A DNA stretch of 34,702 bases, taken from assembly GCF_016464705.1 (NCBI RefSeq), contig NZ_JAEHOB010000002.1:601141-635842 (forward strand), written 5' to 3'. Below are positions 28,262 through 33,795 of this stretch, one piece after another. A model generated the notes under the pieces. That model ran no database searches and was not told where the DNA came from. It saw only the letters and a program-made list of their open reading frames with translations. Every line of letters starts with the position of its first letter. Within the stretch, counting starts at the first letter, position 1. The stretch is from Qaidamihabitans albus. GTDB lineage: Bacteria > Actinomycetota > Actinomycetes > Mycobacteriales > Pseudonocardiaceae. The translations under genes were made by a program, and so were the position numbers.

Positions 28262-29276
28262 TCAGAGCTTGCTCCACAGCTTGCCTGCCGCACCGGACAC
28301 CGCCTCGCCGACCTCGCCGAGCACCTTCGCGAGCGGGTCGGTGGACGCGGTGAACGTGTCCCGGTAGGACCTGGCCGCCGACTTGACGTCCGCCGACCAG
28401 CCCGCCTGCGGGTCGTCGTCCGCGCGGCGCGGATAGTCCCCGCCGAGGATGGAGCGGTACTCCTCCGACGCCGCCCACTTCTGTAACTCCGCCGCACGCA
28501 CGACCGCCAGCGGGTGCGGCATCAGCTCGATGTTGGCCAGCTTCAGCAGGCTGTCCCGGAGGCCCTCCCCCGCCTCGTACTCGCGCGCCTGTTCGAGGAA
28601 GGACGGGATGTCCACCCGCGCCGGATCAAGCCCGCCTGCCAGCAGCACGTGCGCCCGCAGCGCCGCGGCCGGGTCCTGCCCGCACAGCAGGCCCGCCCGG
28701 TCGCAGGACAGCTCGGACTTGCGGAACCACTCGTTGAGGGCGGCGGTGACGGCGCGCAGGCCCAGCGCGCTGACCGGCATCCAACATGCTCAGCTGCAGC
28801 CGCAGCAGCCGGACCAGCATCGTCCGGTACACCGCGTGGCCGGACAGCACGTGCCCCAGCTCGTGCCCGATCGCGAACCGGGCGCCCTCGGCGTCGAGCA
28901 GGTCGACGAGCCCGGTGGTGAGCAGGACGAACGGCGAGTCCATGCCAAGCGTCATCGCCTGTGGCTCGGCCCCGCGGGCGACGAAGACGTCGGGTACCGG
29001 GTCCACGTCGAGGGTCGCGGCGCACTCGTGCCGGATCCGGTCGAGCTCCGGGTACTGCTCCGGCCCGACACGGATGGCCGAGCCGAGCGCCATCAGCCGC
29101 TCGCCGCGCTCGGCGAAGAAGCCGGACACCGCCTTGAGCACCTCCGCGAACCCGGGCACCATCCGCAGCGTCGCGAGCGCACCCCGGTCGACCGGATGCT
29201 CATAGGCCCGCGGGCTGATCCCGGGAAACCGGACCCGCGCCGAGGACCGCTCCGCCGCGCTGTCGCCGTCCTGCAC
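28262..29276 (-). pseudogene. M48-family metallopeptidase gene with a frameshift
   Basis: The reading frame is split. The 5' part starts at a GTG at 29276 with GGAAGGA 7 bases upstream, and encodes an M48 peptidase with the zinc motif HELGH (H138, E139, H142). The conserved sequence then jumps frame at 28778-28787, where two ATGs are separated by TTGG, a 4-base gap, instead of a multiple of three. The 3' part (28262-28780) continues the family sequence, including SELSCDRAG with the expected third zinc-ligand Glu. As read, the first frame runs on out of family sequence to a stop at 28626. It may be a real decay event or a single-base error; if intact it would be a zinc protease of about 338 residues. 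Confidence 0.75.
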
Positions 29277-29396
29277 GTGCTCTTCCTTCCGCCGATGGTC
29301 GGTGCCGGTCCATCCAACAGCACCCCGGAGCACCGGCGACGGCGAACGGCTATCGATCCGATCACGGACGGAGCGGGCAGATCCGGACTAGGCTCC

Positions 29397-29435
29397 GCCC
29401 ATCTCGAGTGCCCATCTCGAATGCCCATCTCGCAC
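29397..29435. repeat. Three tandem 13-bp repeats GCCCATCTCG(A/C)(A/G)(T/C)
   Basis: Three consecutive 13-base units begin GCCCATCTCG at 29397, 29410 and 29423. They lie in the 258-base divergent intergenic region, 16 bases upstream of the ECF42-type -35 element for the DGPF gene. They could be binding sites for another regulator or slippage-prone repeats. Confidence 0.8.
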
Positions 29436-29450: not shown

Positions 29451-29477
29451 TGTCGAGTTCCGGCCGTCCGGCTCGTC
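29451..29477 (+). promoter_or_regulatory. ECF42-type promoter for DGPF/sigma module A
   Basis: TGTCGA (29451-29456), 17 bases, CGTC (29474-29477) match the ECF42 target promoter pattern described for Streptomyces (TGTCGA in -35, CG(A/T)C in -10). The predicted transcript would start about 50 bases upstream of the DGPF start codon, giving autoregulation. Confidence 0.75.
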
Positions 29478-29534
29478 ATTCTCTGTACGACAGGAAACGT
29501 GTACCGCAGGAAACAGGCCGGACAGGAGGACTCG

Positions 29535-29930
29535 ATGCGCTACATGATGCTCATCTACGACTGCGGCGGTCCGCCGGAGCCGGGCGATCCGGGCTTCGAC
29601 GAGGCGCTGGAGCGGATGAACGCCTTCGCCGACGAGTGCCGCAGGCGCGGCACCTTCGTCGGCGGCGATCCGCTGCGGCCTGCGGAAACGGCCACCACGG
29701 TGCGGGTGCGCGAGGGCCGCACGCTGATCACCGACGGGCCGTTCGCGGAGACGCACGAGCATCTCGGCGGCTACTACATCCTGGACTGCCGCAACCTCGA
29801 CGAGGCTCTCGAGCTGGCCGCGCTCTGCCCGCTGGCCGAGCAGGGCTCCATCGAGGTCCGGCCGATCTTCGAGGCACCCGGCCTGCACCGCCGCAACGCG
29901 GGCCCGCCCGCGGCGATCGCCCCGGAATGA
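29535..29930 (+). CDS. DGPF (YCII-related) protein of ECF42 module A
   Basis: The 131-residue protein has the dimeric ferredoxin-like YCII fold and the DGPF motif at residues 67-70 (ITDGPFAET), which marks the partners of ECF42 sigma factors. It starts with MRYMMLIYD, the typical first strand. AGGAGGA lies 5 to 11 bases before the ATG. Its stop codon overlaps the sigma factor start (ATGA), so the two are translationally coupled. The function of DGPF proteins is not firmly known; they are often the main targets of their sigma factor. Confidence 0.9.
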
Positions 29931-31174
29931 CCGGGAGCGCGTCCGCGGCGGCGGTCGAGAAGGCGTATCGCGAGCACCGGGCCAGGATGCTCGCCGCGCT
30001 GGTCCGGGTGCTCGGTGACTTCGAACTGGCCGAGGACGCACTCCAGGAGGCGTGCGCGCTGGCGTTGCGGACCTGGCCGCGGACGGAGGTGCCCGGTGAT
30101 CCGGTCGCCTGGCTGCTGACGGCTGCCCGCAACCGGGCGATCGACCGGCTCCGCCGGGCGCGGACGGCGCACGCCAAGCAGGAGCAGGCCGGTAAGGGCG
30201 AGGCGGTGACGGTGATGACCGGCTACGGCGAGGACCGCCTGGCCCGGGTCGGGGACGACCGGCTGAGCCTGATCTTCACCTGCTGCCATCCCGCGCTGTC
30301 GGAGGAAGCGCGAGTGGCGCTGACGCTGCAGGCGGTCGTCGGGCTCACCGCGGGCCGGATCGCGCGTGCCTTCCTGGTCGGCGAGGCCACCCTCGCCCAG
30401 CGGCTGGTGCGGGCGAAGCGGAAGATCCGGGACGCGGGCATCACCATGGAGGTGCCCGCCGATCACCTGCTGCCCGAGCGGCTCTCCGGAGTGCTCGCCG
30501 TGGTCTATCTGGTCTTCACCCAGGGCTACACGGCCGGGCGCGGCGAGCAGGGGCAGCACCTGCGTGCGGAGGCGGTCCGGCTCGGCAAGCTGATCGCCAG
30601 CCTGATGCCCGACGAGCCGGAGGCGCTCGGCCTGGTGGCCCTGATGCTGCTGCACGACGCGCGCAGCGCCGCACGGCACACCGCCGAGGGCGAGCTCGTC
30701 CTGCTCGACGATCAGGACCGGTCACGCTGGGACCGGGCTGCGATCGAGGAGGGCGTCCGGCTGCTTGACCGTGCGCTGCGGCACGGCAGGCCGGGTCCGT
30801 ACCAGGTGCAGGCGGCGATCGCCGCGGTCCACGCGCAGGCGCGGACGCCAGGGCAGACCGACTGGGCGCGCATCGCGGCGCTGTACGCCGAGCTGCACGA
30901 GATGGCGCCGTCGCCCGTGGTCGCGCTCAACCACGCGGTCGCCGTCGCCATGACCGAGGGCCCGGCCGCCGGGCTGGAGCGGATCGAGCGGATCGACGGG
31001 CTCCAGGAGCTGCGGCGCTACCACCTGCTGCACGCCACCCGCGCGGACCTGCTGCGCAGGCTCGGCCGCCTTGACGAGGCCGCCACCGAGTACCGCCGCG
31101 CGCACGAGCTGGCGACCAGTCCCGCCGACCGGCGCTTCCTCGCCGGCCGGCTGCTCAGCCTGGACGGCGCCTGA
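29927..31174 (+). CDS. ECF42-type RNA polymerase sigma factor A with TPR extension
   Basis: The 415-residue protein has sigma region 2 (about residues 10-80, [19 protein letters not shown]) and region 4 (about 115-170, [31 protein letters not shown]), followed by a 240-residue helical extension with TPR-like repeats. This is the hallmark of group ECF42, where the extension is needed for activity in place of an anti-sigma factor; none is encoded nearby. It overlaps the upstream DGPF gene by 4 bases. It ends 24 bases from the convergent sigma factor B. Confidence 0.92.
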
Positions 31175-31198
31175 TTTCCGGCCGGGCCGTTCGCGGGC

Positions 31199-32467
31199 TC
31201 AGCGCCGTCGCTGGGCGTGGGCTGTCCCGAGACCGGCGGAGAGCCGCGCGGCCTGCGCCACGAGGTAGCGCTGCTCGGGGATACCGGTAGCGCGGCGGGC
31301 GGCGAGTTCGTATGCGGCGCGGGCTGCGTCGTGCTCTCCCGCCATCTCGAGCAGGTGCGCGCGGACGGCATGAAGCCGGTGCCGGTCCGCCATCGCCTTG
31401 TCCGACTCGAGCCCGGCAAGGTGGTCGAGCCCGGCCCGTGGGCCACGCACCATCGCGACGGCCACGGCGTGGTTCAACGTCACCACCGGGTTCGGCCAGA
31501 CGCCTTCGAGCAGCCGGTACAGCAGCAGGATCTGCGGCCAGTCGGTGTCGTCGGCGCAGGCCGCCTCGCTGTGCACGGCGGCGATCGCCGCCTGTAGCTG
31601 GTAGGGGCCGATCGGCGCCGTGCTCAGGGCGGTGGTGAGCAGCGCGGTGCCCTCGGCGATGTGCTCCCGGTCCCAGAGCCGGCGGTCCTGCTCCGCGAGC
31701 GGCACGAGCGTGCCGCCCGGCCCGGTCCGGGCGGCGCGCCGCGCCTCGGTCAGCAACATCAGCGCCAGCAGTCCGGTGACCTCACCGTCGCCGGGCAACA
31801 GGCGGTGCAGCTCACGGGCGAGCCGGATCGCCTCGCCGGTCAGCTCGGTGCGCAGCAGGTCGGGGCCGGAGCTGGCGGCATAGCCCTCGTTGAAGATCAG
31901 GTAGAAGACGTGCAGGACCACCCGCAGCCGGTCATCCCGCTCGTGCTCCGGCGGCATGCGGAACTCGCTGCCCGAAGCCTTGACGCGCTGCTTGGCGCGG
32001 CTGATGCGCTGGCTCATCGTCGCATCCGGGACGAGCAGGGCGCGGGCGATCTGTCTCGTGCTCAGCCCGCCGACGGCGCGCAGCGTGAGCGCCAGTTGCG
32101 CGGACGGTGGCAGTGCCGGGTGGCAGCACAGGAACAGCAGGGTGAGCGTGTCGTCCCGATGGACCGCGCTGTCCTCGTCCGGCCCCGGCGACACCGGCTC
32201 ATCGGGCGGTGCCAGCGCCGTCTCCCGCCGGCGGCGCGCCGCATCGCTGCGCCACGCGTCGGTGAGGCAGCGGCCCGCGACCGTGAGCAGCCAGCTGACC
32301 GGGTGGTCCGGGATGCCCGCCTCCGGCCACTGCAGGGCGGCGGCGAGCAGCGCCTCCTGAACGGCGTCCTCGCAGGCGTCCAGGTCACCGCGGCGGCGCA
32401 CGAGCGTGCCGAGGACCCGCGGCGCCAGCCGGCGCAGCAGGTCCTCCAGCTCAGCCGGTGCCGTCAC
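31199..32467 (-). CDS. ECF42-type RNA polymerase sigma factor B with TPR extension
   Basis: The 422-residue paralogue has sigma region 2 (LDACEDAVQEALLAAALQW), region 4 (ALTLRAVGGLSTRQIARALL, TMSQRISRAKQR), and the same long helical C-terminal extension with [14 protein letters not shown] and NHAVAVAM segments shared with sigma factor A. It starts at a GTG whose first bases overlap the DGPF stop codon (GTGA). The two sigma genes are clearly different in sequence, so this is not a recent duplication. It probably recognises TGTCGA-N17-CG(A/T)C promoters. Confidence 0.92.
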   Translation of the reverse strand: MTAPAELEDLLRRLAPRVLGTLVRRRGDLDACEDAVQEALLAAALQWPEAGIPDHPVSWLLTVAGRCLTDAWRSDAARRRRETALAPPDEPVSPGPDEDSAVHRDDTLTLLFLCCHPALPPSAQLALTLRAVGGLSTRQIARALLVPDATMSQRISRAKQRVKASGSEFRMPPEHERDDRLRVVLHVFYLIFNEGYAASSGPDLLRTELTGEAIRLARELHRLLPGDGEVTGLLALMLLTEARRAARTGPGGTLVPLAEQDRRLWDREHIAEGTALLTTALSTAPIGPYQLQAAIAAVHSEAACADDTDWPQILLLYRLLEGVWPNPVVTLNHAVAVAMVRGPRAGLDHLAGLESDKAMADRHRLHAVRAHLLEMAGEHDAARAAYELAARRATGIPEQRYLVAQAARLSAGLGTAHAQRRR

Positions 32468-32853
32468 ATCTCCATCCCCGCCATGTCCATGATCGGCCGG
32501 ACCTCCACGGCGCTGTAGCGCGCGTCGGGAAAGCGGGCCGCGAGCTCGGTGGCCCGCTGGATGCCGTCGCAGTCGACCACGAAGTAACCGGCGAGGTGTT
32601 CCTTGGTCTCCAGGAAGGGCCCGTCCGTGGCGGTCATGGCGTCATCGCGCACCCGGACCGTTCTCGTGTTGATCGGGTCGGCCAGTGCCGCACTGTCGAC
32701 GAGCTCGCCGGACTCGGCGATCTCGGTGAGCAGCGCGGCCAGCTCCTTCGTGGCGGCCTCGCGCTCCTCGGGGGACAGATCGTCGTGCTGATGCAGGAAC
32801 ATGGGGTGCTCCCAGCTCCGCGGGTTGCTGTAGATCAGGATCAGGTACTTCAT
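32464..32853 (-). CDS. DGPF (YCII-related) protein of ECF42 module B
   Basis: The 129-residue protein has the DGPF motif at 77-80 (ATDGPFLETKEHL) and the ferredoxin-like first strand MKYLILIYSN. GGAGGA is 5 to 10 bases upstream of its ATG. It overlaps sigma factor B by 4 bases and is transcribed from the ECF42-type promoter at 32899-32925. It is paralogous to the protein of module A but clearly diverged, with a longer Asp/Glu-rich loop after residue 20. Confidence 0.9.
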   Translation of the reverse strand: MKYLILIYSNPRSWEHPMFLHQHDDLSPEEREAATKELAALLTEIAESGELVDSAALADPINTRTVRVRDDAMTATDGPFLETKEHLAGYFVVDCDGIQRATELAARFPDARYSAVEVRPIMDMAGMEM

Positions 32854-32898
32854 GCCGCTCCTCCCGGTGGTGGCCGCTGTGCTGCCCTTCGTCGAGGA

Positions 32899-32925
32899 GT
32901 CGGCGCACGCGGCCCGATTTCGACA
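32899..32925 (-). promoter_or_regulatory. ECF42-type promoter for DGPF/sigma module B
   Basis: On the minus strand TGTCGA (32925-32920), 17 bases, CGAC (32902-32899) match the ECF42 promoter pattern. The predicted start of transcription is about 40 bases before the DGPF start codon. Confidence 0.72.
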
Positions 32926-32933
32926 TCTCCGGC

Positions 32934-32960
32934 TGTCGAATCGGCGAACTCTGCTACGAC
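32934..32960 (+). promoter_or_regulatory. ECF42-type promoter for the alpha/beta hydrolase
   Basis: TGTCGA (32934-32939), 17 bases, CGAC (32957-32960) face the hydrolase gene and lie 8 bases back to back with the module B promoter. The predicted transcript starts about 45 bases before the hydrolase ATG. Confidence 0.7.
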
Positions 32961-33009: not shown

Positions 33010-33795
33010 ATGGAGAAGGCTGTCTCGAAGGACGGAACGCCGATCGCGTTCGAGCGAGCAGGGCAGGGCCCGCCGCTGATTCTCGCCGCCGCAGCACTGT
33101 GCGACCGTTCGGCGACCCGCCCGCTCGCCGAACGGCTCGCAAGCCGGTTCACCGTGTTCAACTACGACCGCCGTGGCCGCGGTGACAGCGGGGACACGGC
33201 ACCGTACGCGGTCGCCAGGGAGATCGAGGACCTCGACGCCCTCATCGCCGCGGCCGGTGGAAAGGCCGCGTTGTACGGCCACTCCTCCGGCGCGGGCCTG
33301 GTCCTGCACGCGGCGGCGCACGGCCTGCCGGTCACCAGGCTCGTGCTGCACGAGCCGCCCTACGGACCCGACAGCGAGGACGAGCGCAGGAGCGCTCGGG
33401 AGATCGCGGAGAACATCGGGGCCGCGCTGGCGAAGGACCGCCGGGACGAGGCGATCGCACTGTTCCTGGGCGGCGCCGGCATGCCGCCGGAGATGGTCGA
33501 GGGAATGTGCCAGGATCCGTCCGTGCTGGCGATGGCGCACACCCTCGCCTACGAGTTCGAGATCATGGGCAACATCGACCAGGGTGGCACGGTCCCGGTC
33601 GAGTCACTCGGCGACGTGCCGATGCCCGCGCTGGTCCTGGCGGGCGGCGCGAGCCCGGAGTGGATGAGGGACTCGGCCCGGCGGATCGCGCGGACCCTGC
33701 CCGACGGCCGGCTGCGTGTACTCGAGGACCAGGGACACATGCCGTCCCCCGAGGTGCTCGCTCCGGTGCTCGCGGAGTTCCTCGCCGACGGCTGA
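33010..33795 (+). CDS. Alpha/beta hydrolase
   Basis: The 261-residue enzyme has the nucleophile elbow GHSSG (S92) and the catalytic histidine H243 in QGHMPSPE, with the NYDRRGRGDSG oxyanion-side motif at residues 51-61. The cap region (about 120-190) is helical. It hydrolyses an ester, lactone or similar bond in the cytoplasm; the substrate is unknown. The ATG at 33010 follows GGGAGG and matches the family N-terminus (SKDGTPIAFERAG). It is divergent from ECF42 module B and has its own ECF42-type promoter, so it is a likely regulon member. Confidence 0.9.
   Translation: MEKAVSKDGTPIAFERAGQGPPLILAAAALCDRSATRPLAERLASRFTVFNYDRRGRGDSGDTAPYAVAREIEDLDALIAAAGGKAALYGHSSGAGLVLHAAAHGLPVTRLVLHEPPYGPDSEDERRSAREIAENIGAALAKDRRDEAIALFLGGAGMPPEMVEGMCQDPSVLAMAHTLAYEFEIMGNIDQGGTVPVESLGDVPMPALVLAGGASPEWMRDSARRIARTLPDGRLRVLEDQGHMPSPEVLAPVLAEFLADG

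Follow-up and report, generated by a model that had tools for sequence, protein, structure and literature searches.

Two paralogous ECF42 modules with lineage-bound promoter letters and a divergent alpha/beta hydrolase as candidate extra target in Qaidamihabitans albus

Introduction

Sigma factors of the extracytoplasmic function (ECF) type ECF42 are widespread and can occur in many copies, and a TGTCGA / CG(A/T)C promoter consensus before the YCII gene is reportedly given in the primary ECF42 paper. The subject of this study is a 34,702-base stretch of the Qaidamihabitans albus genome, referred to as the window, which contains two ECF42-type modules arranged tail to tail and, beyond the second one, a divergently oriented alpha/beta hydrolase gene. 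According to the part of a review used here, ECF42 factors consist of sigma regions 2 and 4 followed by a long extension of about 200 residues at the C-terminus, and their genes have a YCII gene as neighbour (PMC8999054). For RpoE10, the ECF42 factor of Sinorhizobium meliloti, the promoters printed in Table 1 of the source read TGTCGG-N17-CGTC, with the spacers counted by eye (PMC6180224), which gives outside support for the 17-base spacing discussed below.

The first module lies on the plus strand and comprises an ECF42-type promoter of the sigma-A type (29451..29477, TGTCGA-N17-CGTC), the gene of the 131-aa YCII-domain protein DGPF-A (29535..29930; Pfam PF03795, E 1.5e-19) and that of the ECF42-type sigma factor sigma-A (29927..31174), whose start overlaps the stop of DGPF-A. 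The second module on the minus strand is built in the same way, with a promoter of the sigma-B type (32899..32925, TGTCGA-N17-CGAC), the gene of the 129-aa YCII-domain protein DGPF-B (32464..32853; PF03795) and that of the ECF42-type factor sigma-B (31199..32467). Each sigma gene is thus adjoined by a PF03795 gene whose translation holds the letters DGPF. Sigma-A and sigma-B, with 415 and 422 aa, both match Sigma70 regions 2 and 4 as their sigma families in Pfam and carry a C-terminal DUF6596 domain behind region 4, and a TPR_2 match is present in sigma-A and absent from sigma-B at E 0.001. A Pfam scan of ten window proteins, which are part of the open reading frames (ORFs) of the window, found no anti-sigma family. 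A third promoter of this type (32934..32960, plus, TGTCGA-N17-CGAC) precedes the hydrolase gene (33010..33795, plus), which encodes 261 aa with a GHSSG motif (Pfam Abhydrolase_6, E 3.2e-18) and whose relative in the PDB, 3r0v (E 2.1e-72), is itself named merely an alpha/beta hydrolase fold protein.

The explanation we favour, with a probability of roughly 0.55, is that these are two paralogous ECF42 circuits which differ by a lineage dialect in the -10 element, and that the hydrolase is an extra target, most likely of sigma-B. A TGTCGA-N17-CGWC promoter would serve each sigma factor for transcription of the DGPF(YCII)-sigma operon that encodes it, with the W letter and nearby bases as the lineage dialect, CGTC for sigma-A and CGAC for sigma-B. 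An ECF42 factor activated by a partner through its C-terminal extension, as described in the part of the review used here (PMC8999054), would then switch on its DGPF-sigma operon and a small enzyme; active sigma-B would induce the hydrolase along with its own operon, the promoters of the two standing back to back. This explanation builds on the computed positions of the sites, their positional enrichment, the lineage-bound letter and the repeated association of the hydrolase with ECF42 modules. From these we infer that the promoters are in use and which sigma factor reads them.

Placement of the promoter motif

The pattern TGTCGA-N17-CG(A/T)C has exactly three matches in the window, all with 17-base spacers and located upstream of DGPF-A, DGPF-B and the hydrolase, at the very positions given by an earlier sequence-only reading. 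Dinucleotide shuffles of the window contained 0.40 matches on average, and only one of 100 shuffles reached three. The distances from the -10 element to the start codon are 57 bases for DGPF-A (ATG 29535), 45 for DGPF-B (ATG 32853) and 49 for the hydrolase (ATG 33010). In placement and spacing, the three sites behave like ECF42 promoters, as had been proposed.

The same reading had suggested a genome search for the pattern, which gave a divided result. The whole genome (6.53 Mb, 63 contigs) contains 37 N17 sites, as opposed to 754 sites for N14 to N20 together, or about 108 per spacing, and within a 0.8-Mb stretch N15 and N18 sites occur roughly four times as often as N17 sites, an excess put down to reading frame. 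The raw count shows no enrichment and was rejected as evidence, so that the evidence from the motif is positional; a reversed-pattern control (6 matches in the genome) was left unused on account of its different dinucleotide make-up. Twelve of the 37 sites are promoter-like, meaning that they lie outside called genes and at promoter distance from a start on their own strand. Eleven of these precede a start called with our own gene caller by 33 to 58 bp, measured from the end of the site, and the twelfth (L020) was counted by eye via an ATG 45 nt downstream, the caller's start being at 286; L011, with a start 72 bp off and a weak ORF, was left out. The remainder consists of 19 sites inside called genes and six without an accepted gene at promoter distance. 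In the 0.8-Mb stretch (12% of the genome), four of seven N17 sites are intergenic and 20-75 bp upstream of a start, compared with 7 of 343 sites for 24 other spacings (Fisher P 2e-5), although three of these four are the window's own. Against the same 7/343, the 12/37 sites genome-wide give P 4e-9, and 9/34 with the window excluded give P 1e-6; the gene caller was trained differently for the genome-wide and the 0.8-Mb counts.

The -10 letter follows the sigma factor lineage

Among the sigma-B orthologs, 13 of 29 loci have an exact site before the YCII gene and all 13 read CGAC, whereas 17 of 29 sigma-A ortholog loci have such a site and all 17 read CGTC. A wider upstream search added three sigma-A loci (L225, L227, L239), all with CGTC. 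On a tree of 55 sigma factors, ranging from family to phylum, the letter requires two changes, as opposed to a mean of 17 after shuffling, with none of 500 shuffles as low. Two copies of the window (L038, L042) and two poor or partial sigma rows (L287, L309) were dropped before tree construction. In a further 58 loci, 26 exact sites were found, one of which was already in the training set and was dropped, and the nearest labelled relative predicted the letter in 24 of the 25 new promoters (the miss being L331), as opposed to 20 of 25 for the majority guess. Extra sites follow the same rule: 73 loci with a module promoter contain 15 of them at 13 loci, a palindromic site in L208 being counted twice, and 14 of the 15 have the letter of their module.

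The sequence-only reading had taken the three window sites as one regulon. This did not hold, as the DGPF-A promoter carries CGTC, the sigma-A type, and those of DGPF-B and the hydrolase carry CGAC, and there are 12 promoter-like sites rather than three. A single sigma factor for all three sites was rejected on this lineage-bound split.

No single sigma residue explaining the letter was found; in the rows displayed, Asn in region 2.4 occurs only in CGTC types and Arg occurs in both. The labels were known when the sequence clusters for this comparison were formed, and these clusters carry no weight as evidence here. The fifth base of the -35 element is a weaker mark than the -10 letter: both sites read TGTCCA at contig C10 of the same genome and at L311, but L218 is mixed, as its module is preceded by TGTCGA and the module's neighbour by TGTCCA, and TGTCGA is found with close relatives of the C10 factor (L239, L356).

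The strongest competitor is a shared regulon without specificity, in which all ten ECF42 factors of the genome read all sites and the A/T letter is neutral inheritance. All 37 sites do share the pattern, albeit by construction, and near copies on the tree, where close relatives such as L225/L227 were kept, inflate the signal of the letter; moreover, three ECF42 factors of Streptomyces venezuelae are said to share nearly one motif. We nevertheless regard it as unlikely, since the letter is kept within lineages while the spacers vary, the extra sites near modules follow the letter of the module, and both promoters share TGTCCA at C10 and L311, the mixed L218 notwithstanding. The stronger proposal, that promoter dialects (chiefly the W letter and its flanks, at some loci the fifth -35 base as well) insulate the ECF42 factors within a genome from one another, so that these would form parallel circuits, is put forward tentatively, with the odds slightly against it. 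If it applied, the sigma factor of a distant gene could be read from its promoter, assigning the DinB-like gene on C62 to sigma-A, the VOC gene on C6 to the C20 factor (by eye), and the hydrolases to sigma-B and the C10 factor.

An independent check is provided by the DinB-like gene on C62, which lies on another contig than the window. Score matrices were built from 19 sigma-A-type and 14 sigma-B-type promoters, with the window sites left out, and from four promoters of clade I (the C56 type). The DGPF-A promoter scores 33.8 with the sigma-A and 14.4 with the sigma-B matrix, the DGPF-B promoter 7.3 and 26.1, and the C62 promoter 27.4 and 6.8. Homologs of the C62 gene beside sigma genes were sought only after this scoring, and such homologs (about 50-69% alike) adjoin the sigma gene in 9 of the 29 sigma-A ortholog loci; five of these nine, found through their extra sites, have CGTC promoters. 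At E 1e-15, none of the other loci among the 155 searched has a DinB-like match. The promoter type had thus pointed to the sigma-A lineage, as these homologs elsewhere adjoin sigma-A ortholog genes.

The hydrolase as a recurrent companion of ECF42 modules

The inclusion of the hydrolase in the ECF42 circuit, as proposed by the sequence-only reading, is supported by its recurrence. In the same genome, two of three hydrolase homologs, the query included and among the matches listed, are divergent beside an ECF42 module. The second case on C10 (L049, G000 C10 94606-97938) is a further module with a divergent hydrolase paralog, in which both divergent promoters read TGTCCA-N17-CGTC and are identical at 23 of 27 bases, each being the nearest match of the other among 14 sites of the genome compared. 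Homology of this paralog is lost after about residue 177 and is followed by a stop in the frame read, so that it may be decayed or misassembled.

In a set of 77 hydrolase homolog regions, the better-scoring homologs among the matches listed, the exact N17 motif is found upstream in nine, always at -90 to -20, and 15 control spacings together yield one exact match. With one mismatch allowed, 16 of the 77 have the N17 motif, while the control spacings give 1 to 8 in the whole region and 0 to 6 when restricted to promoter distance. Of 52 hydrolase loci, 8 have an ECF42 sigma gene in the flanks retrieved (up to about 5 kb), in several arrangements; two regions on one contig (L057, L070) were kept in the 77, and L057 and L242 were kept in the 52. 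In L063 (Paenibacillus), the order is hydrolase-YCII-sigma with the hydrolase first, behind a one-mismatch site; the hydrolase is downstream of the sigma gene in L062, L065 and L266; and in two Streptomyces loci (L066, L067) it is near a sigma-B ortholog without a motif before it. Searching 155 sigma loci revealed a hydrolase homolog beside the module in two further loci, L286 and L312, and in L286 it is divergent with an exact, nearly palindromic N17 site facing it. As a separate observation, the best ECF42-type promoter candidates in L062, L063 and L065 (Paenibacillus, Cohnella) read TGTCGA-N17-CGTT, a further -10 variant.

The sigma factor of the hydrolase promoter

As the hydrolase promoter carries CGAC and the sigma-A type is CGTC, sigma-A is an unlikely driver. 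The location and letter of the promoter speak for sigma-B, yet its scores (sigma-A 5.5, sigma-B 13.8, clade I 12.9) put this factor hardly ahead of other CGAC-type ones.

Several results weigh against the explanation given above. At promoter distance, 61 of the 77 hydrolase regions have no motif even with one mismatch, so that the link between hydrolase and ECF42 would have to be facultative, and to this extent the proposed membership of the circuit stands only in part. The nine exact sites represent about three lineages, with five in one genus, three in another and one in Cohnella, and none of the 29 sigma-B ortholog loci has a hydrolase homolog within flanks of about 1.5 kb. The stretch searched contained no exact promoter at 16 of the 29 sigma-B ortholog loci and at 12 of the 29 sigma-A ones. 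The sigma-B score of the hydrolase promoter is only slightly above that of the four-promoter clade-I matrix, and two clade-I sigma factors are encoded in the genome (C56). Two CGTC sites, those of the C6 VOC gene (24.2) and the C20 YCII gene (20.3), also rank above the hydrolase in the sigma-B matrix, which therefore does not follow the letter alone; by eye, these two promoters share TGTCGAGAAC and GGCTCCGTC and look like a separate dialect.

The hydrolase could accordingly be driven by another CGAC-type ECF42 factor, such as clade I (C56), instead of sigma-B. Besides the close scores, the nearest promoter in the genome to that of the hydrolase is the one of the C56 YCII gene with 18 of 27 identical bases, compared with 16 of 27 for DGPF-B. 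This alternative is nonetheless considered quite improbable, as the hydrolase stands divergently beside the sigma-B module and not at C56, and its -10 element is preceded by CTA, where clade-I promoters commonly have GTT. A chance match before the hydrolase would agree with the many homologs lacking a site, yet the expected number of promoter-placed exact matches is only about 0.0004 for one gene at one spacing (from 7 matches across 24 spacings and 742 called genes) and the motif recurs before the hydrolase in other lineages, which leaves very little room for chance.

The divergent promoters at 32899-32960 do stand back to back, as the sequence-only reading had it, with 8 bp between their -35 elements. 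Given the general size of polymerase footprints, there would probably be no room for two polymerases at a time, and the two promoters may therefore compete. Between the DGPF-B and hydrolase genes, the -35 elements form the inverted repeat TCGACA-N8-TGTCGA. This geometry did not prove to be conserved: back-to-back pairs with a gap of 2-24 and at least one CGAC -10 element were found in 3 of 297 genomes of the family, with only the present one at an ECF42 locus, in a search that could not see C10 (31 bp gap, TGTCCA), pairs with CGTC on both sides or wider gaps. Although this palindrome is real, its use as operator of a dimeric regulator instead of two -35 elements is scarcely credible, given that the -35 elements at C10 are 31 bp apart (counted by eye), that the DGPF-A promoter is a single site, that two of the three genomes with a divergent pair show no sigma, YCII or hydrolase match in the locus, and that an operator leaves the conserved 17-base distance to CGWC unexplained.

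Predicted ECF42 targets in the genome

The genome contains 10 DUF6596 sigma genes and 11 YCII genes, and the 12 promoter-like sites appear to divide among several of the ten sigma factors. The predicted targets, each with an N17 site, are five YCII genes (window A, window B, C1, C20 and C56), the hydrolase of the window, a VOC/glyoxalase gene (C6), two AHSA1/SRPBCC-like genes (C13, C34), a DoxX-like gene (C23, L020), the TIGR03086 DinB-like gene (C62) and a small ORF of no known kind (C9). In the regions inspected, the other six YCII genes have an N18 site in one case, TGTCCA-N17-CGTC in another and none in four. The DoxX-like protein has N-terminal near-identical Thr/Ser-rich repeats. Up to 15 ECF42 factors occur in one genome among those compared, and a genome of the same genus contains a further DUF6596 pair about 1.1 kb apart, arranged tail to tail like that of the window (L340 and L365, G020 C10).

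Upstream of the first module, two overlapping ORFs on the minus strand in different frames (28262-28780 and 28626-29333) match the two halves of an M48 peptidase, a gene which looks frameshifted or affected by a sequence error. A 13-bp tandem repeat of 2.8 copies, GCCCATCTCGAAT, lies just upstream of the DGPF-A promoter (window 29397-29432); by eye, the 60 bases preceding the CGTC-type sites show no such repeat at the sigma-A ortholog loci displayed.

Comparison with described ECF42 systems

ECF42 modules and their promoter type are already known, and the locus is ordinary in kind. To our knowledge, the known ECF42 targets are mostly limited to the factor's own DGPF gene. Leaving the main ECF42 papers aside, the dialects of the lineages and the recurrence of the hydrolase appear to be new. 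What is really added is that the hydrolase repeatedly accompanies such modules and that the A/T letter marks the sigma lineage and on sequence grounds would divide a supposed single regulon. If the -10 letter were a specificity code, the regulons of many uncharacterised ECF42 factors could be assigned from sequence, cross-talk among paralogs would become directly testable, and pairs of factors could serve as orthogonal switches.

In their sigma regions 2 and 4, their extension and the YCII neighbour, the two window modules resemble Sven_0747, Sven_4377 and Sven_7131 of S. venezuelae and ECF-10 of Pseudomonas putida, as far as these are presented in the part of the review used here (PMC8999054). 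A promoter of the same type is a further common feature. The window modules differ from these systems in the presence of two convergent paralogous modules with a divergent hydrolase, and in a -10 A/T position that is lineage-bound and not free. In S. meliloti, the excerpted report states that overexpression of RpoE10 raised glyoxalase-like and hydrophobic-ligand-binding proteins (PMC6180224), which are comparable to the VOC and AHSA1/SRPBCC-type genes predicted here. The same excerpts give, for two induced operons, printed sequences that end 9 nt after the -10 element, taken here as the start site, and place the motif of the S. meliloti YCII gene so that it overlaps the mapped start. They also state that the YCII gene of RpoE10 itself was not induced on overexpression of the factor (PMC6180224), unlike the situation predicted for Q. 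albus, where 5 of the 12 predicted targets are YCII genes.

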